Positions 7,127 through 18,345 of a stretch of DNA of 64,000 nt are shown here, piece by piece. A program made the position numbers and the translations under genes. The notes beneath the pieces are model-generated. The model searched no databases and was not told where the DNA came from. It worked only from the letters and a program-made list of their open reading frames with translations. The first letter of the stretch is position 1, and each line of letters starts with the position of its first letter. Source of the stretch: Mesorhizobium escarrei (GTDB taxonomy: Bacteria; Pseudomonadota; Alphaproteobacteria; Rhizobiales; Rhizobiaceae); NCBI RefSeq assembly GCF_935825525.1, contig NZ_CAKXZT010000119.1, forward strand, positions 1 through 64,000, given 5' to 3'.

Positions 7127-7453
7127 TCATTTTTGGCTAAGATAATCTTTTTCGGGGCGCGCGCCGCTCGAGGCAAGCTCAAGGCTGGAGATCTCCACGG
7201 AAGCATCGAGCGTGCCGTCCGGGCGCACGTTCCAGACGATCTGGTCGTAATCATCCTCAAGCGCCGGATCGACGGAAAGGCATTTGGCAATGATGCGCGG
7301 AGCCTGACCCTGCACATCGTGCAAGGCAAACGGACGCGCGGCGGTGCACTCCTGAGCGGTTTCGAAAACGCTCACCGATACGGGCAATTCGCGACACTCG
7401 GTCATCGTGTTCGAGCAGCCGATGACGAGCAGCACGGCAGCGATATGTTCCAT
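7127..7453 (-). CDS. Conserved rhizobial small protein, stress-controlled
   Basis: Protein of 108 residues, function unknown. It begins with a hydrophobic segment (MEHIAAVLLVIGCSNTM) and contains several Cys (positions about 13, 20, 32, 53) in a pattern TECRELPVSVSVFETAQEC, suggesting a folded exported or disulfide-bearing domain. The ATG at 7453 is preceded by GGAGGAG; the longer frame to 7666 is not needed. A perfect EcfG promoter (GGAAC-N16-CGTT) ends 23 bp upstream, so it very likely belongs to the general stress regulon. I recall similar small proteins annotated as hypothetical in rhizobia, but cannot name a domain. Confidence 0.75.
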   Translation of the reverse strand: MEHIAAVLLVIGCSNTMTECRELPVSVSVFETAQECTAARPFALHDVQGQAPRIIAKCLSVDPALEDDYDQIVWNVRPDGTLDASVEISSLELASSGARPEKDYLSQK

Positions 7454-7475
7454 GGCGGCGCTCCTCCCGCCATAG

Positions 7476-7500
7476 AACGGGCCACATCCGCCAAAGTTCC
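7476..7500 (-). promoter_or_regulatory. EcfG-type promoter
   Basis: On the minus strand GGAAC (7496-7500) and CGTT (7476-7479) are separated by exactly 16 bp, the consensus recognised by EcfG general-stress sigma factors. It reads into the small gene starting at 7453. Confidence 0.8.
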
Positions 7501-7583
7501 TGCGATGCAGGTTGGCGCGACTGATTGGAGAAACAGACCGGCGTGAGCCAAGCACGAGCCGCCGGCCACTTTGCTCTGACGCT

Positions 7584-7766
7584 CTAGACCAACTGAAACG
7601 CGGCGGCCACGACGACCACGGCAGCCAGCCCGATTGCGGCGAGGCCGGGGATCGGGAGGGAAGCACGGGGCGATGGAATTGCGGATGCTTCGATATCCTG
7701 AAACCCGCTCATCGAAACGCGTGCGGCCTGTTCCAGCCTGTTGATGTCGGCAGCCGTCAAAGCCAT
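7584..7766 (-). CDS. Small single-pass membrane protein
   Basis: Possible gene of 60 residues. MALTAADINRLEQAARVSM is followed by a linker and a C-terminal membrane helix (LPIPGLAAIGLAAVVVVAAA), giving a tail-anchored layout. A GGGAGGA sequence abuts the ATG at 7766, unusually close, while an upstream TTG at 7787 would have better spacing. No family was recognised and no EcfG motif precedes it. The helix and ribosome binding site argue for a real gene, but it is small and could be spurious. Confidence 0.5.
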   Translation of the reverse strand: MALTAADINRLEQAARVSMSGFQDIEASAIPSPRASLPIPGLAAIGLAAVVVVAAAFQLV

Positions 7767-7943
7767 TCCTCCCGTACCGCGCAGCAACTGCGATCGAAAA
7801 CCTCATGCGGAGAGTGTGTCTGAGAAAAACAGCATCGAACTTTATGGTGAACAGATGGTTAAGGCCGGCGCGGTCGGCCAATTCCAGCCATCTTGGCCCC
7901 AACCCGCTTGGCCCCAGCCCTCTTGAGCTCGGCTGTTGTCCCT

Positions 7944-8966
7944 TCAATCCGTCTCGAAATTGCCGCGAGGAACGACGAGATGATATTCGAGACGATCCCC
8001 GGTGATTTCAAGTTTCGCCGTACCGTTCAACGACGCAGGCACGACGCGCTCGAGCGCGACGCTGCCAAAACGCTTCTCGCTGGGCTGATTGTCATTGGCT
8101 CCGATGGCCTCGGCCCATGTCAGCGACAGCGCGGTCTCGCCAGCGGAAGCCGCCGTCAGATCGGCCGTCACCTCGACGAATCCGTCGGCTCGCGACAGAG
8201 CGCCGTAGCTGACAGAATTGACGGCAAGCTCGTGCATGGCCAAGCCGATATGCAGGGCGGCATTGGGATTGAGGTATGGGTTTGCACCGCGAAAACGCAG
8301 GCTGCGCACAGGGTCGGCTCCATAGCGGCCGACCTGGCCGGACACCAATTCGCGCAGTGCCGCTCCTCGCCAGTTGGACGACGTCACCAGGTCCTGGGAT
8401 GAGGCAAGCGACTGCAGCCGGCCGCGAAAGCGTGTCAGGAAATCACTGAGCGTGTCCGAATAACGGCTGGTCTGGGTGGCGATGCTCTGGATGATGGCCA
8501 AAAGGTTCTTCGAACGGTGGCTGACCTCGCGCAGCAGCGTCTTCAGTGTTTGCTCGCGACGTTTCTGCTCGGTCGTTTCGACCATGGTGGTGACGACGCC
8601 CTGCACGGCGCCGCCGTCGTCATGATCCGCGTCCACCCATATCTGGAACCAGCGAGCGCCATCGTCGGCGGGAATGCTGAGCTCAAGATGTTCCGGATTG
8701 CCGGATACGACGACCTTGCGTTTGGCTGCGCCGATGCGCTCCGCCTGGGCCGGCGGCAGGATGCCGTCGCCCGTGTCGGAAACCCCCGTGTCGGAAACCC
8801 AGGGCGGGCGCATGTTGCGGGCCCAGACGGTTTTCATCTCGCGATCCTGATAGAGAACCGAAATACCGGCATTGTGCAGCGCATGGAGAAGGGCCCGGCC
8901 AAGCTGCATTCCACTCTCAGCGGACTGCAAAGCGATGATCTCATCGCTCCGTCCGCTGTCTTTCAT
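7944..8966 (-). CDS. PAS-domain HWE/HisKA_2 histidine kinase
   Basis: Soluble kinase of about 340 residues. A PAS-like sensor region lies at about residues 30-140 (ISVLYQDREMKTVWARNM, WFQIWVDADHDDGG), followed by the dimerisation motif LLREVSHRSKNLLAIIQSI with the phospho-acceptor His and a HATPase domain (MHELAVNSVSYGAL). There is no membrane segment. The ATG at 8966 with GGAG close upstream is favoured; 8987 is possible. A perfect EcfG promoter lies at 9017-9041, only compatible with starts below about 9010. A kinase under EcfG control next to phyR could give feedback on the stress response; the kinase-PhyR link is inferred. Confidence 0.85.
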   Translation of the reverse strand: MKDSGRSDEIIALQSAESGMQLGRALLHALHNAGISVLYQDREMKTVWARNMRPPWVSDTGVSDTGDGILPPAQAERIGAAKRKVVVSGNPEHLELSIPADDGARWFQIWVDADHDDGGAVQGVVTTMVETTEQKRREQTLKTLLREVSHRSKNLLAIIQSIATQTSRYSDTLSDFLTRFRGRLQSLASSQDLVTSSNWRGAALRELVSGQVGRYGADPVRSLRFRGANPYLNPNAALHIGLAMHELAVNSVSYGALSRADGFVEVTADLTAASAGETALSLTWAEAIGANDNQPSEKRFGSVALERVVPASLNGTAKLEITGDRLEYHLVVPRGNFETD

Positions 8967-9016
8967 GTCTCCGGTTCTGGATTGCATCGGACGCTTTACC
9001 CGCCGCATCCGTGCTG

Positions 9017-9041
9017 AACGGCTGACGGAAAAATGGGTTCC
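9017..9041 (-). promoter_or_regulatory. EcfG-type promoter
   Basis: Minus-strand GGAAC (9037-9041), 16-bp spacer, CGTT (9017-9020). It reads into the PAS kinase gene that starts at 8966. Confidence 0.78.
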
Positions 9042-9138
9042 CAAAAAGAAGTCCGCCGAGCGACGTCCGGCTAAGGACACCGCCCGGCGGTAGCTGGAAA
9101 CCGCTTGAGGGGTGCGGCTCCCAGTGTTCCATCGCAGC

Positions 9139-9306
9139 TCACGACGCGCGTTTAAACAAGCCAGCAATAAGCGAAATGATCAGGAAAGCGAGGAAGATGA
9201 AAAACAATATCTGCGCTATACCAGCCGAGGTGCCAGCGATTCCGCCGAAACCAAGTGCGCCTGCAATGATCGCAACGACGAGAAATACGAGCGCCCAGTA
9301 AAGCAT
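9139..9306 (-). CDS. DUF1328 small membrane protein
   Basis: Membrane protein of 55 residues of the DUF1328 (YtjA-like) family. Two hydrophobic helices are separated by a [14 protein letters not shown] loop, and the sequence [20 protein letters not shown] is characteristic. AAAGGAGATGGACC precedes the ATG at 9306, deciding the start against the longer frame to 9444. A perfect EcfG promoter sits at 9337-9361. Proteins of this family are recurrent members of general stress regulons in rhizobia, but their molecular role is unknown. Confidence 0.9.
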
Positions 9307-9336
9307 GGTCCATCTCCTTTCAAATAGTATCGCAAA

Positions 9337-9361
9337 AACGTCTTTCGCTGCCGTTTGTTCC
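9337..9361 (-). promoter_or_regulatory. EcfG-type promoter
   Basis: Minus-strand GGAAC (9357-9361), 16-bp spacer, CGTT (9337-9340), reading into the DUF1328 gene 31 bp downstream. Confidence 0.8.
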
Positions 9362-9479
9362 AACTTTTCTCGAAAAAGACGATCCCTGGAAGCTTTCCGG
9401 CTCGAATTGACTCGACTTGGATCGTCATGCGCAGGGAGTTGCAAGTGACGGTCGCCGGCCGCAAGCGGCCAGCTCTATC

Positions 9480-9515
9480 CATCTGCGGAAAACGGGCCAT
9501 CTGCGGAAAACGGGC
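9480..9515. repeat. 18-bp tandem duplication
   Basis: The unit CATCTGCGGAAAACGGGC occurs twice in direct succession between the DUF1328 gene and the phyR 3' end. It is non-coding; no function is evident. Confidence 0.6.
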
Positions 9516-9563
9516 GATCAGAGGGCTTGTGGAAAGGGGCGCTGAAGCCCGGGCTGCCCGGTC

Positions 9564-10358
9564 CTATGCAGCGGCTTTCGCATGCCGGTCGAAGAACAGC
9601 GCCTGGCTGATCAGGGCCTTGACCATCTCCGGATTGAACGGCTTGGTGACGAGGAAGGCCGGCTCCGGCCGCTCGCCGGTAAGGAGGCGCTCGGGAAAAG
9701 CGGTGATGAAGATCACCGGCACCGGGGTGGAGGACAGGATCTCGTTGACCGCTTCGATGCCCGAGCTGCCGTCGGCAAGCTGGATGTCGGCCAGCACCAT
9801 CTTCGGCCGCGTCTTTGCGAACATCGCCACCGCCTCGGCATGGGTACGCGCCGTTCCGACAACGCGATGGCCCAGGCTCTCGACCATTTGCTCGATGTCC
9901 ATGGCGATCAGCGGCTCGTCCTCGATGATCAGCACATCGGTTGCCACCTGGCGGGAAATCTCGTTGCTGGCCTCGGCAAGAAGCTCGGAGAACTCCTGAT
10001 CGTCGACGTCGAGAATCTCCGCCGCCTCGTCTTCGCTGAAACCTTCGACGGCGACCAGCAGGAAGGCCTGGCGGGGACGGGGTGAGATCGCGTTCAGATT
10101 GGCGGCGGCGCGCTGTTCCCACGCCGACTGCGGGTGTTCCTGCGGAACGCGGATGGCGACCGAGGTGAACAGCCTGGCGAAGACCTTGTAGAGCGCGATG
10201 CGGTCGTTCGACGCGTTCGGAAAGATGTCGACGTCGGCGATGATGGCTTCGAGCATCGCGGCGACCAGCGCGTCGCCACTCTCCTGCGATCCGGAGACGG
10301 CCCGCGAAAAGCGGCGCAGGAACGGCAGGTGTGGAGCGATGGTTGCGGATAGGCTCAT
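9564..10358 (-). CDS. phyR: General stress response regulator PhyR
   Basis: Anti-anti-sigma factor of 264 residues. Residues 1-135 form a degenerate ECF sigma-like domain (FSRAVSGSQESGDALVAAML, SPRPRQAFLLVAVEGFSEDEAAEIL); residues 140-264 are a receiver with acidic pair IIEDEP, phospho-acceptor Asp191 in VLADIQLADGSSG and Lys in VTKPFNPE. When phosphorylated, PhyR family proteins bind NepR and release EcfG. The start at 10358 has GGGAGA upstream, and the resulting length matches the family. It is divergent from nepR-ecfG, the conserved arrangement, and has its own EcfG promoter at 10441-10465, implying positive feedback. Confidence 0.95.
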   Translation of the reverse strand: MSLSATIAPHLPFLRRFSRAVSGSQESGDALVAAMLEAIIADVDIFPNASNDRIALYKVFARLFTSVAIRVPQEHPQSAWEQRAAANLNAISPRPRQAFLLVAVEGFSEDEAAEILDVDDQEFSELLAEASNEISRQVATDVLIIEDEPLIAMDIEQMVESLGHRVVGTARTHAEAVAMFAKTRPKMVLADIQLADGSSGIEAVNEILSSTPVPVIFITAFPERLLTGERPEPAFLVTKPFNPEMVKALISQALFFDRHAKAAA

Positions 10359-10440
10359 GATGGACGTCTCCCTCTGACGTAATTGCATAGGTTGGAGGCC
10401 AAGCTGATGACAAGCCCCGAAAACAAACCCTGAAAACATA

Positions 10441-10465
10441 AACGCCGGCTTTCCGAAAAAGTTCC
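10441..10465 (-). promoter_or_regulatory. EcfG-type promoter of phyR
   Basis: Minus-strand GGAAC (10461-10465), 16-bp spacer, CGTT (10441-10444), about 80 bp upstream of the phyR start codon. Confidence 0.85.
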
Positions 10466-10472
10466 GAGGCTT

Positions 10473-10497
10473 GGAACTAATACAAGAGGAAGGCGTT
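10473..10497 (+). promoter_or_regulatory. EcfG-type promoter of nepR-ecfG
   Basis: Plus-strand GGAAC (10473-10477), 16-bp spacer, CGTT (10494-10497), about 95 bp before nepR. Its -35 box is only 7 bp from the -35 box of the divergent phyR promoter, so the two polymerase sites are back to back. Confidence 0.85.
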
Positions 10498-10593
10498 TGA
10501 GATCGGGACGGGCAACCAGACGAGGGGGCCGCCTGCTTTGCGTCGTATATTGAAGGGCGGCAGGGTACTGGGAACAAAGGGCGAAATGGCGAC

Positions 10594-10791
10594 ATGAGGA
10601 AAGACAACACGGCTGGCGCTGCAACGAACAGGCGCCGGGCTGCTTCCGGCGACCCGCTCGGGCCAAACTCGGAAATCGGCCGCAAACTCAAACAATATTA
10701 CGACGAGCTGGTCTCCGACGCCGTGCCGGATCGCTTTGCCCAATTGCTCAGCCAGTTGGAACAGGCCCAACCTGCACGGAAAAAGGACTGA
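10594..10791 (+). CDS. nepR: Anti-sigma factor NepR
   Basis: Small protein of 65 residues that sequesters EcfG until phosphorylated PhyR binds it. The core GPNSEIGRKLKQYYDELVSD followed by VPDRFAQLLSQLEQA is the conserved two-helix NepR signature. The N terminus is basic and probably unstructured. The gene ends 3 bp before ecfG, so the two are translated from one message. No strong ribosome binding site is visible before the ATG, which may keep its level modest. Position between phyR and ecfG makes the assignment very safe. Confidence 0.93.
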   Translation: MRKDNTAGAATNRRRAASGDPLGPNSEIGRKLKQYYDELVSDAVPDRFAQLLSQLEQAQPARKKD

Positions 10792-10794
10792 GGC

Positions 10795-11346
10795 ATGGCG
10801 GCCGTCTCCCAAAGCTTCAAGACGGATCTGCTCGCCTCGATTCCGAGCCTGCGGGCCTTTGCCGTGTCATTGACGCAAAATGCCGACAAGGCCGACGATC
10901 TGGTGCAGGAAACGCTGGTGAAGGCGTGGGACAAGCATGAAAGCTTCGAGCCGGGCACCAATCTCAAAGCATGGCTGTTCACCATCCTGCGCAACGAATT
11001 CTATTCGCAGATGCGCAAGCGCGGCCGCGAGGTGCAGGATAGCGACGGCATCATGACCGCCAGGCTAGCCGTCCATCCGGCCCAGCACGGCCAGCTTGAC
11101 CTCAAGGATTTTCGGAGCGCGCTCGAGCAATTGCCCGAGGACCAGCGCGAAGCCATCATCCTCATCGGCGCGTCGGGCTTTTCCTACGAGGAAGCCGCCG
11201 AAATTTGCGGCTGTGCGGTCGGAACGATCAAGAGCCGCGTCAGCCGCGCCCGCACGCGGCTGCAGGAAATCCTGAAGATTTCCGGCGATGACGAGTTTGG
11301 CCCGGATGCGATTTCGGCTCAGGTGACGGGGTCGAACGCCGCCTGA
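10795..11346 (+). CDS. ecfG: ECF sigma factor EcfG (RpoE-like general stress sigma)
   Basis: Sigma factor of 183 residues directing RNA polymerase to GGAAC-N16/17-CGTT promoters. Region 2 shows LRAFAVSLTQNADKADDLVQETLVKAW and NLKAWLFTILRNEFYSQMRK; region 4 shows LPEDQREAIILIGASGFSYEEAAEI and GTIKSRVSRARTRLQEIL. The short C-terminal extension is family typical. It is co-transcribed with nepR from an EcfG promoter, so it is autoregulated. Nine matching promoter motifs are found within roughly 9 kb around the gene. Confidence 0.95.
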   Translation: MAAVSQSFKTDLLASIPSLRAFAVSLTQNADKADDLVQETLVKAWDKHESFEPGTNLKAWLFTILRNEFYSQMRKRGREVQDSDGIMTARLAVHPAQHGQLDLKDFRSALEQLPEDQREAIILIGASGFSYEEAAEICGCAVGTIKSRVSRARTRLQEILKISGDDEFGPDAISAQVTGSNAA

Positions 11347-11398
11347 ATACGGATCACCGGCAATGTGGGACCGTGTAGTGGGCTCCGGTTTCAGGACA

Positions 11399-11779
11399 TC
11401 AAACAACAGGTCCGCGCCCGCACGCCGACGCCACTGCCTCCACGAGATCGTCTCCCGAATAGGGTTTGGTGACCAATCTGACATCCGGAAACGCCACCTT
11501 GATTTCGTCCATGTCGGAATAGCCCGAGGCGAAGACGAAAGGCACGCCCGATTCGCGCAGCCGCGAAGCGAAATCGAGTGTCGAAGTGCCGCCCAGCATG
11601 AGGTCGACGATGGCCGCGTCGAATCGCGAGGCAATGCTCTGCCGATCGATCTCAGCCAGATTGCGGGCGATGACCACATCGCCGGCGCCATAGTCGCGGC
11701 AAAGCTGCTCGACATCCATGGCGATCAGGAATTCATCCTCCAGAACAAGAATCCGCAATCCGTCCAGCAATCGGGGCAC
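11399..11779 (-). CDS. Stand-alone response regulator receiver
   Basis: Single-domain receiver of about 126 residues: acidic residues in LRILVLEDEFLIAMDVE, phospho-acceptor Asp in AAIVDLMLGGTSTLDFASRL, and Lys in LVTKPYSGDDL. There is no output domain, so it acts by phosphotransfer or protein binding. I favour the GTG at 11779 (VPRLLDGLRILV), which has GGAGA nine bases upstream; the frame is open to an ATG at 11836 without a good site. It lies convergent to ecfG, a common position for single-domain regulators that tune the general stress response; a role there is inferred. Confidence 0.8.
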   Translation of the reverse strand: MPRLLDGLRILVLEDEFLIAMDVEQLCRDYGAGDVVIARNLAEIDRQSIASRFDAAIVDLMLGGTSTLDFASRLRESGVPFVFASGYSDMDEIKVAFPDVRLVTKPYSGDDLVEAVASACGRGPVV

Positions 11780-11852
11780 GTGGCAATGTCTCCGTGGGGC
11801 GCAGGGAACAGGGAGCGCAAGGGATAGAGGAGTCATGATCTCTATTTGGCTT

Positions 11853-11890
11853 CCTGTCATTTAAAGTTATTTCGCATCCTGTCATTTAAA
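11853..11890. repeat. 13-bp direct repeats upstream of the Crp/Fnr gene
   Basis: CCTGTCATTTAAA occurs at 11853-11865 and again at 11878-11890, 25 bp apart. They lie between the divergent receiver gene and the Crp/Fnr-type gene and could be tandem regulator sites. They do not match the TTGAT-N4-ATCAA Fnr consensus. Confidence 0.5.
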
Positions 11891-11982
11891 AAAGACATGC
11901 CGCCGCAGATGGCGGAACCTCGACGCCTGCAGGGCGTTTGCTCTCGCCCTCCGGAAGAGGGCCGCTTCGAAGAGGGATTGAA

Positions 11983-12744
11983 ATGTCTGGCCAGAACGGC
12001 CGTTCCTTGTCCGCCCGCCGGTATTCATGTGAGAACTGCCCACTGCGGCCGTTGCCGGCGTTCCGGGCATTCGAGAAGCAGGAACTCGTCTTCGTCAATG
12101 GGTTCAAGAAGGGCGAACTGACTGTCGACAAGGGCGACACGGTTCTGGTTGAGGGAAGCCACAGTGCCCATCTGTACACAGTGCTGTCGGGTTGGGCTTT
12201 TCGCTACAAATTGCTGCCGGATGGCCGCCGGCAGATTCTGAACTATTCCATGCCAGGCGATCTCATCGGCCTGCAAGGCAGTCTGATGGGCGAAATGCAG
12301 CACTCCGTAGAAGCGCTGTCGCCGATGCTGCTCTGCCTCTTCGAGCGGGAGGCCCTCCCCGAACTCTACCGCAGCCATCCGGGTCTCGCCTACGACATCA
12401 CCTGGATCGCCTCGCGAGAGGAGCGCATGCTCGACGAGAATCTGCTCAGTGTCGGCAGACGCACCGCGCTGGAGCGTGCTGCCTATCTCATCGCCTTCAT
12501 CTCCAGTCGCGGCAGGGCGGTCGGATTGAACGGCAGGACGCCCGTGCAGATTCCGATCACACAGCAGCACCTCGCCGATACGCTCGGCCTGTCGCTGGTC
12601 CACACCAACAAGACGATCCGCAAGCTGATGGACCGCAAGCTTATCTTCTGGCGCGACGGCGGCTGCGAGGTGGTCGACAACGAAAGGCTCAAGGAACTCG
12701 CCCGCTGGGAAGGGTTGAGCGAAGATCGCCGACCGCTGATCTGA
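11983..12744 (+). CDS. Crp/Fnr-family transcriptional regulator
   Basis: Regulator of 253 residues. An N-terminal CENCPLRPL segment (Cys16, Cys19) precedes a cyclic-nucleotide-binding-like beta-roll (GDTVLVEGSHSAHLYTVLSGWAFRY, ILNYSMPGDLIGLQGSL) and a C-terminal winged helix (ITQQHLADTLGLSLVHTNKTIRKL). Only two N-terminal cysteines are present, fewer than in FnrN with its iron-sulfur cluster, so oxygen sensing is uncertain. Start at 11983 is preceded by GAGGGATTGAA. Paired direct repeats lie about 95-130 bp upstream. Proteins of this group near stress genes in rhizobia are common, but targets here are unknown. Confidence 0.85.
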   Translation: MSGQNGRSLSARRYSCENCPLRPLPAFRAFEKQELVFVNGFKKGELTVDKGDTVLVEGSHSAHLYTVLSGWAFRYKLLPDGRRQILNYSMPGDLIGLQGSLMGEMQHSVEALSPMLLCLFEREALPELYRSHPGLAYDITWIASREERMLDENLLSVGRRTALERAAYLIAFISSRGRAVGLNGRTPVQIPITQQHLADTLGLSLVHTNKTIRKLMDRKLIFWRDGGCEVVDNERLKELARWEGLSEDRRPLI

Positions 12745-12815
12745 GCGGCTACCGGAGACGTGCCGGGCTGGACTCGGCTGCGCAAACACCCTTTCATGGG
12801 AGTTGTTCCGATTTC

Positions 12816-12840
12816 GGAACCTTGGGGTGGGTCGAACGTT
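12816..12840 (+). promoter_or_regulatory. EcfG-type promoter
   Basis: GGAAC (12816-12820), 16-bp spacer, CGTT (12837-12840), 30 bp before the DUF883 start codon. Confidence 0.82.
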
Positions 12841-12870
12841 TCGACCCGAGCAAACGCAAGGAGTCAAGCA

Positions 12871-13197
12871 ATGGCGACTGCCGCAGGAAAGTCCCCGAAC
12901 GAAAGCCGGCCGAATTCGGACCTTGAAGACGACATCAGGCAACTGAAAGTCGACATTCAGAAACTCACCGAACAGCTGGCCGAGACCGGCCAACATGGTT
13001 ACGGGGCGGCTCGTCGCGTTGCTGCGGAAGGGGTCGAGCAATTGCGCGCCCAAGGCGAAGCAGCCTTTGAAAATGTGCGCAGCAACGCCAGGGATATCGA
13101 AGCTCAAGTGGTGGCGAGCGTGCGCGAAAAGCCGGTGACGTCGCTGGCAATCGCGGCAGGCGTAGGCTTTCTGTTTGCGCTTCTCGCGCGCCGCTAG
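12871..13197 (+). CDS. DUF883/YqjD-ElaB family protein
   Basis: Protein of 108 residues with a long amphipathic, probably coiled-coil region (DLEDDIRQLKVDIQKLTEQL, then an Ala/Glu-rich helix) and a C-terminal membrane anchor VTSLAIAAGVGFLFALLARR. This is the layout of YqjD/ElaB proteins, which tether ribosomes to the membrane in stationary-phase E. coli; the same role here is unproven. AAGGAG lies 7 bp before the ATG at 12871, and a perfect EcfG promoter is just upstream. The following holin-like gene is 11 bp away, as in yqjD-yqjE. Confidence 0.88.
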   Translation: MATAAGKSPNESRPNSDLEDDIRQLKVDIQKLTEQLAETGQHGYGAARRVAAEGVEQLRAQGEAAFENVRSNARDIEAQVVASVREKPVTSLAIAAGVGFLFALLARR

Positions 13198-13208
13198 TCT
13201 CAGCCCAG

Positions 13209-13673
13209 ATGGGAATGCTGGCATCGTTACTCTCGGGCCTCGCCTCGGGTGAAGCCGTCGCAGCACTGCGCCGCGCGCGCACGGCTGCAACCGTCTATGG
13301 GCTCGCAGCACTTGCAGCACTGTGCGGCCTCGGTTTCCTCGTCGGAGCGGCCTATGTCTCGGTGGCCGGTCGCTACGGGCCGATGGCAGCCTGCCTTGGC
13401 TTCGGGGTCGGCTTCCTGGTGATCGCAGGGCTCCTCCTGCTCGTCCATCAGCTGTCGGCCGGCGCGCGCGCTCGACGCCGGGCGCGGAGGCGCAATGCCG
13501 ATATGAAGGCGGTCGGCATCACGGCGGCGCTCGCCGTGCTGCCGGCGCTACTCAAGGGGAAAGGCGGCCTCGGCACCATACTCGCCCCGGCGATAGCACT
13601 CGCCGCCTACGCCATCTACCGCGAGAACACAAAACCCGATGCCGACGATCCGGATGCCGGCGAAGCGAAATAG
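13209..13673 (+). CDS. Holin-like (YqjE/phage holin superfamily) membrane protein
   Basis: Membrane protein of 154 residues in the putative Actinobacterial Holin-X/YqjE superfamily. Two helices occur at about residues 28-52 and 60-82, a basic stretch RARRRARRRN follows near 90, and two more hydrophobic segments occur at about 100-138. The tail KPDADDPDAGEAK is acidic. It is in an operon with the DUF883 gene and so probably under the same EcfG promoter. Despite the family name there are no lysis or phage genes nearby, so a stress-related envelope role is more likely. Confidence 0.75.
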   Translation: MGMLASLLSGLASGEAVAALRRARTAATVYGLAALAALCGLGFLVGAAYVSVAGRYGPMAACLGFGVGFLVIAGLLLLVHQLSAGARARRRARRRNADMKAVGITAALAVLPALLKGKGGLGTILAPAIALAAYAIYRENTKPDADDPDAGEAK

Positions 13674-13685
13674 CTCGAAGCGGGC

Positions 13686-13748
13686 AATGATCCGAAAACC
13701 GGGTTCCACTTTCCCTGACGCGGACCTTCGAGTCGGGATCAATGCTCG
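13686..13748 (+). repeat. Dispersed intergenic repeat, copy 2
   Basis: This gap matches the reverse complement of 4069-4135 over most of its length (core TGACGCGGACCTTCG). No reading frame is supported in it. Confidence 0.6.
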
Positions 13749-13753
13749 AGCCG

Positions 13754-15268
13754 TCACTTCGCCAGATCTTCCAGCGGCATCGATATTTCGGCGAACACGC
13801 CTTCCGGCCGGAATTCGTGGGTCACTTCACTGGAGATGACCTTGGCCAGGCTGCGGCGGATCAGGATCGAGCCGAAGCCTTGGCGTTCGGGCGAGGCAAC
13901 TTCGGGCCCGCCGCTTTCGCGCCAGGTCAGCACCAGGCGCCGAGCGCCTTTCCGCCCCTGCGCCTTCCAGTCGAGATCGACCTTGCCCGAAGCTGCCGAC
14001 AGCGCTCCGTGTTGCAGCGCGTTGCTGGCCAGTTCATGCAGGATCAGGCCGAGCCCGACTGCCTGGTCGGGCGAAAGCAGCAGATCGGCGCCTGAGATCG
14101 TCATGCGCGGCTGTTCGGCGGTGTCGAACGGCTTGACCTCGATTTGCACGAGTTCGCGAATGCCGATGCCGCGCCACTCGCGGTCCGACAGCAGGCTGTG
14201 GGCGGCGCCCAGCGCCTGAAGCCTGGCGCTGAAGGCGTCGAGGAAATCCCTCGGCTGGCGGGCATGGCGAACTGTCTGCGTCGCCAGCGCCTGCACGGTC
14301 GCCAGCGTGTTCTTGACGCGATGGTTCAGCTCGCGCAGCAACAGCCGCTGCCGCTCATCGCCGAGCTTGCGCTCGGTGACGTCGTAGTTGACCCCGAAGA
14401 TCAGCGTCGGCTTGCCGTCGCCGTCGCGCTCGATGACCCGGCCGCGCGTAGCGAGCCAGCGCGGCGGACTGAGGCCCTTGACGCGGTATTCGCCAAGATA
14501 ATCGTCGCCGCCGCTTAGCGCGTCGCGAAAGCGCGTCTCGGTCTCGTAGACGTCACGCGGGTCGATGGCGGCAAGGATATCGCGCGCCCTCAGCCGGGTC
14601 GAGCGCGGCAGGTCGAACAGCTCGGATAACCGGGCATCGCATTCGATCATGTCGGTATGGATATCCCATGCCCAGCTCGCGAGCGATGCGGCATCGAGCG
14701 CAATGCCGCGCCGCTTTTCCTCCCGTGCCAGCGCCGCTGCGGCGCTGGCGCCGCTGCGGGTGGCGTCCTTCAATGCGAACAGGCTGGCGGCGAGGCTGGC
14801 GAGCGCCGTCAATTGTTCGAGCTGGGCGGCAGACGGCGACCCGCGCGGCTTCCGGTCGAACACGCTGAGCGTGCCTATCCGGGCGCCGGCCACCACAATC
14901 GCCGCACCCGCATAGAAACGGACATGATGCTCGCCAGTGACCAGCGGGCTGGCGTTGAAGCGTGAATCCGTGGTCGCATCGGTCACCACCATCGGCTCGT
15001 CGCCGGCGGCAATGGTGTGGGCGCAGAAAGATGTGTCGGTCGCGGCCTCGGTCTCGTCCAGGCCGACATGGGATTTGTACCATTGCCGTTCGATATCGAG
15101 CAGCGTCACCAGCGCGATAGGCGCTTGCATCGCCGCGGCGGCAAGACCGCTGATATGGTCGAAGTCGGGATCGGCCGCCGTGTCGATTGCATCGAGACTG
15201 TGGAGGACGGCAAGCCGGTCCTGCGCCCTTACCACGCCAAGGACATCGACCGGCAGATTCGGCTTCAT
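13754..15268 (-). CDS. GAF-PAS HWE histidine kinase
   Basis: Soluble kinase of 504 residues. A GAF domain spans about 25-170 (ALVTLLDIERQWYKSHVGLD, FYAGAAIVVAGARIGTLSVFD), a PAS/PAC domain about 190-310 (IALDAASLASWAWDIHTDMI, PTLIFGVNYDVTERKLGDE), then the HWE motif LLRELNHRVKNTLATVQALA with its phospho-acceptor His, and a HATPase region LILHELASNALQHGAL. Start at 15268 (MKPNLPVDVLG) follows an AGGG site; the 100 residues before it are low-complexity frame extension. It is the third HWE/HisKA_2 kinase near phyR and a candidate phosphodonor. The GAF domain shows no clear cofactor signature; the signal is unknown. Confidence 0.85.
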   Translation of the reverse strand: MKPNLPVDVLGVVRAQDRLAVLHSLDAIDTAADPDFDHISGLAAAAMQAPIALVTLLDIERQWYKSHVGLDETEAATDTSFCAHTIAAGDEPMVVTDATTDSRFNASPLVTGEHHVRFYAGAAIVVAGARIGTLSVFDRKPRGSPSAAQLEQLTALASLAASLFALKDATRSGASAAAALAREEKRRGIALDAASLASWAWDIHTDMIECDARLSELFDLPRSTRLRARDILAAIDPRDVYETETRFRDALSGGDDYLGEYRVKGLSPPRWLATRGRVIERDGDGKPTLIFGVNYDVTERKLGDERQRLLLRELNHRVKNTLATVQALATQTVRHARQPRDFLDAFSARLQALGAAHSLLSDREWRGIGIRELVQIEVKPFDTAEQPRMTISGADLLLSPDQAVGLGLILHELASNALQHGALSAASGKVDLDWKAQGRKGARRLVLTWRESGGPEVASPERQGFGSILIRRSLAKVISSEVTHEFRPEGVFAEISMPLEDLAK

Positions 15269-15361
15269 CTCTACCCTGCTATCCACACGGCTTCCCCCCA
15301 CGAAAAAAATGCATCGGCTTGCTGCCATTCGCGCCAGGCCCAGTTGCCTGGCTCTGAAACC

Positions 15362-15386
15362 GGAACCTTCGCCTTGAGGAACCGTT
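15362..15386 (+). promoter_or_regulatory. EcfG-type promoter
   Basis: GGAAC (15362-15366), 16-bp spacer, CGTT (15383-15386), about 75 bp before the small membrane gene at 15462. Confidence 0.75.
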
Positions 15387-15461
15387 ACCCAACCACATTT
15401 TGGCAGCCGCGCCCGCCGGCGCCAACCGACATACCAGCGCCAACCGAAATGGAGGCCGATC

Positions 15462-15662
15462 ATGCCCAGGATCGTTCCTGAAGACAAAGCCCGCCAGGGA
15501 CGCTGGGGGTGGCACACTTTTCGCATCTTGATCGCTGCGCTGCTTTTGGCGTTTATCGCCTGGGGCATCGCGGAGATCTACGGCAACATGATAGACAGGA
15601 CGCCGACAACCGAACAGGGCGAACTCCCCAGGAACGAACAGGGCGAGACACCCAAGGGCTGA
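15462..15662 (+). CDS. Small single-pass membrane protein, stress-controlled
   Basis: Protein of 66 residues, family not recognised. One membrane helix (FRILIAALLLAFIAWGIAEI, residues about 20-40) separates a basic N terminus from a hydrophilic tail with a repeated motif (TEQGELPRNEQGETPKG). GGAGG precedes the ATG with good spacing. A perfect EcfG promoter lies upstream, which argues strongly that this short frame is a real gene of the general stress regulon. Confidence 0.75.
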   Translation: MPRIVPEDKARQGRWGWHTFRILIAALLLAFIAWGIAEIYGNMIDRTPTTEQGELPRNEQGETPKG

Positions 15663-15691
15663 GGCCTTCCGATCGACTATGCCGGGACGCA

Positions 15692-16612
15692 TCACGCGGC
15701 CTTCGCCTGGACAGCGTGCGCCGGAACGAGAACATTCAGCGCGCCAGGATGGATTTCGATCGTGGTTTTGCTTTCAAGCCTGACCAGTTCGCCATCCATG
15801 ACGGCGCGAAGCTTCTTGGCCGCCGAGTGGACTTTCAAAACAACCCGGTCGGCCTGGTGGATTTCGACGTGCTCACTGTTGCGCCATTTGCCGCGCGCCA
15901 CGTCGAAGAGGAACCTGACCAGTTCGCCACGCCGTCGCGCCACCGTGACATAGATGCCAAGCACGCCGCCGGCGGGATTGTCGGCATAGGGCAGATGACC
16001 CTCACCGAACAGATTGTTGGTGATGCCGATGCCGATGGTGCGCGTCACGATCTCGGCTTCGCCGATGATCAGCGTCACCTTCATTGCCGACGGGTTGTTG
16101 ATTGCCGCCCAGGCAGCCTTCACCGAAGCCCGCATCTTTCCCAGCCGCGAGCCAAATTCCATGGTCTGGCGAAGCTGAACCATCCTGGCATGCATGCCGA
16201 TCGAGAATTGATGCACGAATGGCTGGCCGTTGGCGGTCGCTATATCGACTGCAATCACCTCGCCGTCGGCAAAGGATTTCACAGCCGCGTCAAGGGTCTG
16301 TGGGACGCCGAGCCCGCGTGCAAACAGGTTCATCGTGCCAGCCGGTAGAATGGCAAGTGCTTTCTTCCTGCCCATCAACCGAGCCGCCGCGGCCGAAATG
16401 GTGCCATCGCCGCCACCGGCCAGCACAATGTCGACACTGTGCCTGGAAGCGATGCGGTCCAGCGTTGCTACGATGTCCTTGCCGGCAACGATTTCGATAT
16501 CGATGCAGTGACCTGCTGCCTCCAATGTCTGGCGCATTCGGTCGGTGAAGGCGGAGAGATCAATGGTGCGCAGGGTGCCGCCCTCCTGGTTCAGCACCGC
16601 CGCAAATCGCAT
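15692..16612 (-). CDS. Diacylglycerol kinase-family lipid kinase (YegS/DgkB-like)
   Basis: Cytoplasmic or membrane-associated lipid kinase of about 306 residues, DAGK catalytic domain family. The nucleotide-binding signature VDIVLAGGGDGTISAAAARL is followed by LAILPAGTMNLFARGLGVP, both diagnostic, and a C-terminal beta-rich half. Likely phosphorylates diacylglycerol or a sphingoid/lipid substrate; the exact lipid is unknown. Start at 16612 (MRFAAVLNQEGG) has GGAG eight bases upstream and lies downstream of a perfect EcfG promoter at 16683-16707; a start at 16642 is possible, while starts beyond about 16675 would precede transcription. Membership in the stress regulon is inferred from that promoter. 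Confidence 0.88.
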   Translation of the reverse strand: MRFAAVLNQEGGTLRTIDLSAFTDRMRQTLEAAGHCIDIEIVAGKDIVATLDRIASRHSVDIVLAGGGDGTISAAAARLMGRKKALAILPAGTMNLFARGLGVPQTLDAAVKSFADGEVIAVDIATANGQPFVHQFSIGMHARMVQLRQTMEFGSRLGKMRASVKAAWAAINNPSAMKVTLIIGEAEIVTRTIGIGITNNLFGEGHLPYADNPAGGVLGIYVTVARRRGELVRFLFDVARGKWRNSEHVEIHQADRVVLKVHSAAKKLRAVMDGELVRLESKTTIEIHPGALNVLVPAHAVQAKAA

Positions 16613-16682
16613 TCCCCCGCTCCGATTTTTCTTGGCAACCATTGGATGATCATCGGCCGCAACAGACCGAGCCATGGGTCGA

Positions 16683-16707
16683 AACGGGGCGGTTGAAAAA
16701 AAGTTCC
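16683..16707 (-). promoter_or_regulatory. EcfG-type promoter
   Basis: Minus-strand GGAAC (16703-16707), 16-bp spacer, CGTT (16683-16686), about 70 bp before the lipid kinase start. Confidence 0.8.
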
Positions 16708-16803
16708 GCAGCTCTAACGAAAATACAGGAGCCAATCTCGCCCGGCTAAACGCATGATTGAGCGCGATTCGGGTGGTTTTTTCACAACGCTCGCGATGGT
16801 GTC

Positions 16804-16828
16804 GGAACAACGGCGCGGTCACGACGTT
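16804..16828 (+). promoter_or_regulatory. EcfG-type promoter
   Basis: GGAAC (16804-16808), 16-bp spacer, CGTT (16825-16828), about 68 bp before the PRC-barrel gene. With 16683-16707 it forms a second divergent EcfG promoter pair in the window. Confidence 0.82.
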
Positions 16829-16896: not shown

Positions 16897-18345
16897 ATGA
16901 TCCGCACCCTTTTATCCACCACCGCACTGGCAGCGTTGATTGCGACCGGTGCGTATGCGCAGGAAGCCACAACCCCGGCGCCGACCCAGGACCCGGCGGT
17001 CCAGGAGACCGCTCCGGCGGCTCCGGTTGCGCGCGCCGAGGGCAGCCTGATGACCAATATCATTGGTGAATCGGTCTATAACGGCACAGGCGACGACGCC
17101 GAGAACATCGGTGAAGTTAGTGATGTCGTCTTCGATGAAAACGGTCAGGCGAAATCCGTCGTCATCAGCGTCGGCGGCTTTCTTGGCGTCGGTGCCAAGA
17201 ATGTCGCTTTCGACTACAACAAGCTGCAATGGGCCGAACGGAATGGTGACCGCTGGCTGATCGCCGAAACCACCAAGGACGAGTTGACGGCTCAGCCGGA
17301 CTTCGACCGTAAGCCTTACGATCCGGCTCCTGCGGCCACGGCTACGGCTCCCGCACCATCGACCTCGACGGATACGACCGCGCAGAATGCGCCGGCGGCT
17401 CCAGCCGATAGCACCGCAGCTCCGGCCGAACCTGTGAAGCGTGCCGACGGTAACCTCGCCACCAATATCATCGGCGAAACCGTCTACAACGGCACTGGCG
17501 ACGACGCTCAAAACATTGGCGACGTGAACGACATCGTTCTGGCCAAGGATGGCAAGGCCGAGTCGCTGATCATTGGCGTCGGCGGCTTCCTTGAGGTTGG
17601 CGAAAAGAATGTCGCCTACGAGTTCGATAAGGCCAAGTGGGCGGAAAGGGACGGCGATCGCTGGCTGGTCGCCGAAACCACGAAGGAAGACCTGGAGGCG
17701 TTGCCGGAGTTCGACCGTGACGCCTATGATCCCGCCCCGGCGACAACCGCATCGACTGACGCGGCGACGCCTGCGCCAGTGATCACCACCCCTGCTGTCA
17801 CTCCAGCCCCGGCGGAGAAGACCGCGGAAGCTCCCGCGGCAACGCCTGAACCCGCTGCTCCGGCACCGGCGGACAAGACGGCGCAGGCCCCAGCGCCGGC
17901 GCCTGACACCACTGCTCCGGCGCCAGCGGACAAGACGGCGGAGGCTCCGGCTGCAGCAACCCCTGACGCAACGCCCGACCAGACGCAGACCGCGGCGATC
18001 GACAAGTCGGCGCTGACTGAAATGCCGGTCGACAAGATCCGCTCCGAGGACCTGGTTGGAACCACCGTCTATGGCGCCAACGATGTCAACCTCGGTGAGA
18101 TTGGTGACGTCGTGCTGACGGGCGACAAGAAGGTAGACGCCGTCATCATCGACGTCGGCGGTTTCCTCGGGGTTGGCGAGAAGGAAGTGGCAATCGGCAT
18201 GGAAAACCTTAAATTCATGACCGACAAGGATGGCAACCGCTATCTCTACACGAACTTCACCAAGCAGCAGCTCGAGGCGCAGGCCCCCTATGACAAGGCC
18301 ACATACACGCAAAACCGCGACACCCAGCGCATGATGATGCGCTAG
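16897..18345 (+). CDS. Exported protein with three PRC-barrel repeats
   Basis: Protein of 482 residues. A signal peptide (MIRTLLSTTALAALIATGAYAQ) is followed by three PRC-barrel-like units at about residues 49-145, 185-280 and 384-475. Each carries a G-N/D-I-G-(E/D)-V-x-D-(V/I)-V motif and a VGGFLGVG or VGGFLEVG turn. Units 1 and 2 are nearly identical, a recent duplication. The linkers are Ala/Pro/Thr rich; between units 2 and 3 the motif APAPADKTAEAPA recurs. CGAGGAGG lies before the ATG and a perfect EcfG promoter upstream. Periplasmic location and a role in envelope stress are inferred; the family has no assigned activity in this form. Confidence 0.88.
   Translation: MIRTLLSTTALAALIATGAYAQEATTPAPTQDPAVQETAPAAPVARAEGSLMTNIIGESVYNGTGDDAENIGEVSDVVFDENGQAKSVVISVGGFLGVGAKNVAFDYNKLQWAERNGDRWLIAETTKDELTAQPDFDRKPYDPAPAATATAPAPSTSTDTTAQNAPAAPADSTAAPAEPVKRADGNLATNIIGETVYNGTGDDAQNIGDVNDIVLAKDGKAESLIIGVGGFLEVGEKNVAYEFDKAKWAERDGDRWLVAETTKEDLEALPEFDRDAYDPAPATTASTDAATPAPVITTPAVTPAPAEKTAEAPAATPEPAAPAPADKTAQAPAPAPDTTAPAPADKTAEAPAAATPDATPDQTQTAAIDKSALTEMPVDKIRSEDLVGTTVYGANDVNLGEIGDVVLTGDKKVDAVIIDVGGFLGVGEKEVAIGMENLKFMTDKDGNRYLYTNFTKQQLEAQAPYDKATYTQNRDTQRMMMR

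Follow-up and report, generated by a model that had tools for sequence, protein, structure and literature searches.

The general stress response (GSR) of Alphaproteobacteria relies on the PhyR-NepR-EcfG partner switch, whose sigma factor belongs to the extracytoplasmic function (ECF) group ECF15. In the available text of two reports (PMC4814048, PMC8103513) nepR-ecfG lies divergent from phyR and both units have EcfG-type promoters; a divergent, EcfG-controlled pair of this kind is thus already known, and the stoichiometry of the switch is raised in the available part of PMC4814048. A 64,000-nucleotide stretch of the Mesorhizobium escarrei genome (contig NZ_CAKXZT010000119.1, positions 1 to 64,000; hereafter the window) carries the same three proteins in the same arrangement. 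Here, they sit in an island of ten EcfG-type promoters. The available text of the two reports mentions no such ten-promoter island, no preferred gap between the −35 boxes of phyR and nepR and no A/T block upstream of these boxes.

Related regulons offer further points of comparison. In the accessible part of PMC3892343, the motif published for Rhizobium etli EcfG1 (RpoE4) is GGAAC-N16-CGTT, identical to the island motif, and is carried by 19 of the 56 transcription units that are down in an ecfG1 mutant; the one extra local promoter mentioned there belongs to ReC64, an EcfG1-driven non-coding RNA in the ecfG1-phyR region. RpoE2-dependent starts, including that of rsiA1, have likewise been mapped in Sinorhizobium meliloti, but the targets are genome-wide, and clustering at rpoE2 is not discussed in the portion of PMC3616915 available. 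The EcfG-dependent genes of Sphingomonas melonis include those for a PRC-barrel protein, Ku and a cAMP-binding regulator, according to the accessible part of PMC6599016.

The locus is very probably a core island of the alphaproteobacterial GSR, in which EcfG would act at ten promoters, those of phyR and nepR-ecfG and those of eight flanking units. This reading starts from what the DNA itself displays, namely the gene content, ten closely packed sites that recur at orthologous genes and, at the phyR/nepR pair, a preferred spacing and an A/T block. Use of these candidate promoters by EcfG and the logic of the switch are carried over from the named pathway: NepR would hold EcfG until phosphorylated PhyR removes NepR, and the freed EcfG would transcribe its own control genes (phyR; nepR-ecfG) as well as the eight flanking units, forming a self-regulating hub surrounded by a first shell of targets. 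For Mesorhizobium, the island would name a few first-line stress genes for which control by EcfG is readable from sequence.

The cluster of EcfG-type promoters

A pattern scan of both strands revealed ten perfect GGAAC-N16-CGTT sites in the window, all inside 7476-16828. The preliminary description had listed nine of them, with correct coordinates and strands, and had noted no further perfect match by eye; the site at 11914-11938(+) had been overlooked, and beyond these ten none is present in the 64 kb. All ten lie in promoter position, each reading into a gene start, and the 22-96 bp from the end of CGTT to the assigned start codon agree with the 20-100 bp proposed before and with the definition used here for an EcfG-type promoter (GGAAC-N16/17-CGTT no more than about 100 bp from a start codon). 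The exact 16-bp spacing also holds at every site here, but relatives swap in N17 at the same promoters. An Rfam scan of the window at gathering thresholds matched nothing.

Among 100 dinucleotide shuffles of the window, the mean number of sites was 0.45 and the largest 3, against the ten real ones. The genomic background, which the preliminary description had proposed as a check, was also determined: the whole genome (7,713,034 bp in 200 contigs) contains 99 N16 sites, ten in the 9.35-kb island and 89 in the remaining 7.70 Mb, so that the island is about 92-fold denser than the rest. With N17 spacing there are 57 sites genome-wide (68 for the backwards pattern) and none in the island. When 10-kb stretches beginning at an N16 or N17 site were compared, the island ranked first with 10 sites, the best stretch outside having 5.

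The features of the island, in window coordinates, are as follows.

7130-7453, minus strand: small lipoprotein-like protein, no Pfam family (scanned as 7130-7552)
7476-7500, minus strand: EcfG-type promoter of the lipoprotein-like gene, perfect site, 22 bp to start
7947-8987, minus strand: HWE histidine kinase (Pfam HWE_HK, 1.6e-23)
9017-9041, minus strand: EcfG-type promoter of the HWE histidine kinase, perfect site, 29 bp to start
9142-9306, minus strand: DUF1328 small protein (Pfam scan)
9337-9361, minus strand: EcfG-type promoter of the DUF1328 gene, perfect site, 30 bp to start, carrying an A/T block of its own at 12-19 bp upstream
9567-10358, minus strand: phyR, anti-anti-sigma response regulator (PhyR_sigma2, 7.5e-24; PhyR_sigma-like, 2.5e-24; Response_reg, 9.4e-14)
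10441-10465, minus strand: EcfG-type promoter of phyR, perfect site, 82 bp to start, back to back with 10473-10497
10466-10472, no strand: 7-bp gap between the two GGAAC boxes (GTTCC-GAGGCTT-GGAAC)
10473-10497, plus strand: EcfG-type promoter of nepR-ecfG, perfect site, 96 bp to start
10594-10788, plus strand: nepR, anti-sigma factor (Pfam NepR, 1.1e-15)
10795-11343, plus strand: ecfG, ECF sigma factor (Sigma70 r2 and r4)
11914-11938, plus strand: EcfG-type promoter of the Crp/Fnr gene, perfect site, 44 bp to start
11983-12741, plus strand: Crp/Fnr-family regulator (Pfam cNMP_binding, HTH_Crp_2)
12816-12840, plus strand: EcfG-type promoter of the DUF883-like gene, perfect site, 30 bp to start
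12871-13194, plus strand: DUF883-like protein (Pfam match below the curated cut-off)
15362-15386, plus strand: EcfG-type promoter of the 66-aa protein gene, perfect site, 75 bp to start
15462-15659, plus strand: 66-aa protein, no Pfam family
15695-16642, minus strand: YegS/DAGK-like lipid kinase (domain scan)
16683-16707, minus strand: EcfG-type promoter of the diacylglycerol-kinase-like (DAGK) gene, perfect site, 40 bp to start
16804-16828, plus strand: EcfG-type promoter of the PRC-barrel gene, perfect site, 68 bp to start
16897-18342, plus strand: PRC-barrel protein, three matched repeats (domain scan)

The phyR-nepR-ecfG core named in the preliminary description is borne out by the Pfam PhyR, NepR and sigma domains: PhyR combines sigma-like and receiver domains, and NepR lies upstream of an ECF sigma factor, which is 99% identical to EcfG of M. 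temperatum and M. wenxiniae. Judging from its neighbourhood, the HWE histidine kinase at 7947-8987 is a candidate PhyR kinase. The island also contains a membrane protein, a GAF-PAS-HWE kinase and a lone receiver-domain response regulator; the last (11402-11779) adjoins ecfG and carries FASGY in the place of the FATGY-like motif of GSR single-domain regulators.

Conservation at orthologous genes was counted at mapped starts only, a site being a perfect N16 or N17 match upstream; orthologues matching from after residue 25, kinases with <40% identity and upstream stretches of <100 bases were left out. Across 32 Mesorhizobium loci, a site precedes phyR, nepR, DUF1328 and DUF883 in 32/32 cases each, DAGK in 31/31, PRC in 28/28, the 66-aa gene in 30/31, the lipoprotein gene in 25/26, the HWE kinase in 24/32 and Crp/Fnr in 23/25, and the backwards motif occurs 0-3 times per gene in the same upstream regions. 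N16 and N17 interchange at one and the same promoter (14 and 11 for the lipoprotein gene, 22 and 9 for DAGK). No site is found upstream of the Mesorhizobium CHASE kinase (0/31), GAF kinase (0/25), response regulator (0/32), Gly-zipper protein (0/32), membrane protein (0/31) or ecfG (0/32); since ecfG has no perfect site of its own, it is probably in an operon with nepR. In 48 loci outside Mesorhizobium, sites precede DUF1328 in 39/41 and DUF883 in 39/46, and among 31 stretches from the order DUF1328 has one in 8/14. These stretches come from the 30 genomes with the best EcfG matches (one genome gives two); 43 of 61 genomes matched at 1e-25.

Several results weigh against the island reading. 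The HWE-kinase site is absent in 8 of the 32 Mesorhizobium loci and the Crp/Fnr site in 2 of 25; conservation is weaker in the 48 other loci, where phyR has a perfect site in 33/48 and nepR in 19/38, and in the order stretches, where the figures are 15/29 and 6/12. Furthermore, the backwards pattern is commoner in the whole genome than the motif itself (130 versus 99), and many of the off-island matches must therefore be due to chance. The last figure could also be taken to mean that the cluster is a lucky stretch of common GGAAC and CGTT, produced by chance or base composition. Yet no shuffle came near ten sites, and the positions are kept across the 32 loci, where the backwards motif averages 0.31 per locus; on the shuffles and the conservation at orthologous starts, chance and composition were rejected as the cause of the cluster, and their probability is practically nil.

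Clustering around ecfG is common in the order and is on average richest in Mesorhizobium. The number of sites per ~20-kb locus averages 9.28 (range 8-10) in the 32 Mesorhizobium loci and 5.94 (range 2-12) in the other 48, with at least 3 sites in 47/48; the 31 order stretches average 4.35 (range 0-10), with at least 3 in 23/31 and none in four. Shuffled loci contain 0.30-0.38 sites per ~20 kb, and the backwards motif reaches 3 in one of the 48 non-Mesorhizobium loci and in none of the other sets. The preliminary description had called a physical island of this kind unusual; with clusters around the canonical ecfG in most of the order stretches, that view is not supported, and the island has the appearance of an ordinary, well-conserved EcfG core regulon. 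The cluster might have no function as a cluster, representing an old gene order kept by descent in which each promoter acts alone. The order of the genes is indeed common to relatives, promoter-position sites occur elsewhere in the genome, and other groups exist, such as that of the Ku/LigD genes on contig C46; clusters nevertheless persist around ecfG in other families where the gene content is partly different, and we regard descent alone as an explanation of slightly less than even probability.

Expression data from another species bear on the same genes. The 50 genes most induced by heat shock in M. loti MAFF303099 include mll3685 (PRC-barrel, 6.08, third), mll3694 (transcriptional regulator, 4.98), mlr3707 (4.25) and mll3692 (4.14), according to the accessible part of PMC3989490; the four tags lie around the rpoE2-like mll3697, which is itself heat-induced at 2.4. 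By tag order, strand letter and description, these tags appear to match the PRC, Crp/Fnr, lipoprotein and DUF883 genes of the island. Such induction, a response to heat rather than to the loss of ecfG, lends indirect support to EcfG dependence.

Spacing of the phyR and nepR promoters

The promoter pair matters more than the island, as the partner switch should need its anti-sigma, sigma and anti-anti-sigma factors balanced. The divergent pattern AACG-N16-GTTCC-N(0-30)-GGAAC-N16-CGTT was found in 84 of 397 order genomes and its reversed control in none; with N(31-61), the numbers were 40 of 397 and 3. A phyR/nepR pair was defined as one flanked by PhyR (at least 45% identity) and, on the opposite side, by NepR and/or EcfG, and duplicate pair sequences were dropped. 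Of the 83 other matching genomes, 66 were covered first, and 60 regions around pairs were fetched; the remaining 17 genomes, 7 others and 27 of the 40 wide-gap genomes were added later. The 87 pairs obtained under a looser rule thereby grew to a census of 93 distinct pairs, the window included; many of these are close relatives (32 come from Mesorhizobium), and the number does not stand for independent events. Outside the census stand further pairs of G256, G255, G208, G189 and G103, second or third pairs of G046, G017 and G251, the far pairs of eight wide-gap genomes and seven Mesorhizobium pairs (gaps 8-9) placed beside ecfG by coordinates.

The gap between the boxes, 7 bp in the window, is 5-10 bp in 71 of the 93 pairs (8 and 9 bp in 54 of them) and 28-32 bp in 18; the remaining four have gaps of 19 (two pairs), 22 and 39 bp. 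The newly read wide-gap pairs (32-59 bp; 27 genomes) yielded no phyR pair. Divergent pairs that adjoin no control gene (119) have gaps spread over 0-59 bp, with 33/119 at 4-11 bp, and the DAGK/PRC pair (16 pairs with gaps up to 61 bp) ranges over 25-59 bp without a sharp mode, its gap being 95-96 bp in the window, L031 and L033. In Mesorhizobium the intergenic lengths of the two pairs overlap (218-238 bp for phyR-nepR, 119-382 bp for DAGK-PRC). The sequence of the phyR/nepR gap differs from genus to genus, and both gap classes can occur inside one family, as in f24 (8; 28-32) and f15 (8; 29). The arrangement of the phyR/nepR pair gives the impression of following a rule.

At the level of the class, 21 of 289 genomes matched the divergent pattern (backwards control in 6), among which phyR pairs are a minority; the 21 loci include the window genome's own site and one already among the order genomes. 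PhyR and EcfG adjoin the pair in L339, L343 and L354, with gaps of 6, 7 and 8 bp.

Some pairs depart from the common arrangement. In L276-L285 (genus g83 of family f39), phyR pairs with gaps of 7-10 bp have no adjoining ecfG match, and NepR is recognised opposite in 4/10. Other families also have Crp/Fnr-like genes close to a divergent EcfG-type pair, the gap there being 9-11 bp (L290, L291, L350, L351, L352). Eight genomes of genus g33 of f32 (L373-L380) share a divergent pair with a gap of 4-6 bp that none of the eight sought genes adjoins.

The A/T block upstream of the −35 boxes

A/T content and genus-level statistics were computed on 94 pairs, before the census additions: the 87 above and 7 with PhyR on one side, including L289 at 29%; L330, with a second PhyR-like gene (39%), was left out. 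In long-gap pairs an A/T tract lies centrally, 12-19 bp from both boxes, a position that requires a gap of about 30 bp. In short-gap pairs the richest A/T stretch is also 12-19 bp away, where the opposing box together with its adjacent T-tract forms it. When the 36 bp upstream of the box were compared in 8-bp windows, the best one fell exactly at 12-19 for both nepR and phyR, within Mesorhizobium as well as beyond it. At least 6/8 A/T at 12-19 bp upstream of GGAAC is found in Mesorhizobium at nepR in 31/31, at phyR in 84% of 31 and at DUF1328 in 90% of 31, compared with 0-19% for other island genes and 7% of 55 off-island sites in promoter position. The block has 6/8 A/T at both phyR and DUF1328 in the window. 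For DUF1328 the best 8-bp window is again 12-19 in Mesorhizobium, with a weak peak at 10-17 (0.56) outside it; DAGK (9 sites) peaks at 12-19 (0.61) outside Mesorhizobium. The four remaining pairs have the tract 12-19 (13-19) bp from nepR at gaps of 19 and 22 bp and about 11-19 bp from phyR at the gap of 39 bp.

A/T-rich DNA upstream of the −35 box, the UP element, raises the strength of ECF promoters in the sigma-E system of Escherichia coli. Those elements differ from the candidate element of the island, which would serve two divergent promoters, either jointly or with each promoter supplying the other. At phyR, nepR and DUF1328, the DNA some 40-60 bp ahead of the start is rich in A/T, the start position being assumed from the box. 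The block, at about −47 to −54, may be an UP element for the alpha subunit of RNA polymerase, and would boost the autoregulatory promoters but not most target promoters. With a long gap the two promoters would share the block and with a short one each would supply it to the other, so that phyR and nepR-ecfG would be coupled. A shared or reciprocal predicted UP element is the explanation that we favour for most lineages, as a weaker inference than the island reading itself. A fuller form of this proposal, which is put forward tentatively and stays short of being probable, is that the control promoters are built as one unit, with the position of the UP element fixed at −47 to −54, shared at gaps near 30 or reciprocal via the T-tracts at gaps near 9; the unit would hard-wire the ratio of anti-anti-sigma to anti-sigma and sigma factors and mark the feedback promoters off from most targets, and lineages would have switched layouts while keeping the geometry. 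If true, such an element would be a simple DNA-level answer to the stoichiometry problem. No account of the preferred gap or of the block was found in the accessible literature on EcfG, PhyR and RpoE2 promoters or on ECF UP elements, subscription papers being mostly outside its scope.

A number of observations speak against a shared or reciprocal element. In the window, the nepR block has only 5/8 A/T. The Crp/Fnr A/T stretch of Mesorhizobium lies farther out, at 19-26. The nepR-side block is at background in 3 of the 27 short-gap genera, namely g83 (10 pairs) and g119 of f39 and g67 of f24 (the PhyR match in g119 being only 29%), and the phyR-side block is 0.50 or less in 8 of the 27. Short-gap genera also have a weaker phyR-side block overall than long-gap genera (0.66 versus 0.86), and in short gaps the opposing GTTCC box usually fixes two of the eight block positions.

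The weaker phyR block of short-gap genera would fit an alternative in which the A/T stretches belong to an extended −35 box (GGAACTT) of strong promoters, the gap being simply inherited. T-tracts do follow GGAAC directly at Mesorhizobium phyR and nepR, with A/T of 0.84-0.87 against 0.43-0.61 at other island genes. However, long-gap pairs have their tract in the centre and little T-tract after GGAAC: A/T directly after the box is 0.69 (nepR) and 0.81 (phyR) in the 27 short-gap genera, compared with 0.47 and 0.42 in the 7 long-gap genera (P 0.02 and 0.0009, respectively, uncorrected for shared descent). An inherited gap is also at odds with the DAGK/PRC pairs, whose gaps are scattered at overlapping intergenic lengths. 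We consider an extended −35 box improbable.

A further alternative is that two EcfG-polymerases compete with each other or are helically phased: one would exclude or orient the other and in this way fix the transcript ratio, and the spacing would owe nothing to a shared UP element. Genus-level gap medians (n=38) show their greatest regularity at a 10.5-bp period (R 0.82), and the long gaps, some two helical turns away from the short class, average 0.9 bp off its phase (P 1e-5 versus uniform 11-45), both figures ignoring shared descent. In addition, gaps of 7-10 bp are retained without the A/T block in g83 of f39 (10 pairs) and g67 of f24 (one pair); because the spacing survives there, polymerase competition or phasing may be the older constraint. 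Yet the block keeps a constant distance from the box in both gap classes and is found at the unpaired DUF1328 promoter of Mesorhizobium. Since the A/T tract predicts both classes and the 10.5-bp statistic takes no account of common descent, helical phasing was set aside as the sole cause of the two classes and kept only as a rival; competition or phasing appears unlikely, if a little less so than the extended box.

EcfG-type sites elsewhere in the genome

All 146 off-island N16 and N17 sites were examined. Promoter position, defined as intergenic with a start within 150 bp, applies to 38 of the 89 N16 and 17 of the 57 N17 sites, compared with 4.9% of random positions. The gene caller used off the island is crude, recovering the start for 7/10 window sites and missing the short DUF1328, NepR and 66-aa genes. 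After subtraction of chance, roughly 45-50 strict EcfG-type promoters lie elsewhere, against ten in the island; the scattered targets that the preliminary description had held to be typical of EcfG therefore exist in this genome as well, alongside the cluster.

Two further groups of sites are of note. On contig C46 (5164-20326; L270, L271), five EcfG-type sites surround two Ku genes, two LigD-type ligase genes and a gene for a thiamine pyrophosphate (TPP) enzyme, a group that probably serves stress-driven end-joining repair. Five more lie within 7.4 kb on C160 (31701-39127; L272), near DUF2267 and YbhB-type phosphatidylethanolamine-binding-protein-like genes. A second EcfG-like sigma factor, 46% identical, is encoded on C13 (29412-29867; L273 7329-7913), and has divergent EcfG-type sites some 0.8 and 1.0 kb upstream of it; the first gene reached from the nearer site encodes a 164-aa protein with no Pfam family. 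A hierarchy of two EcfG factors is possible.

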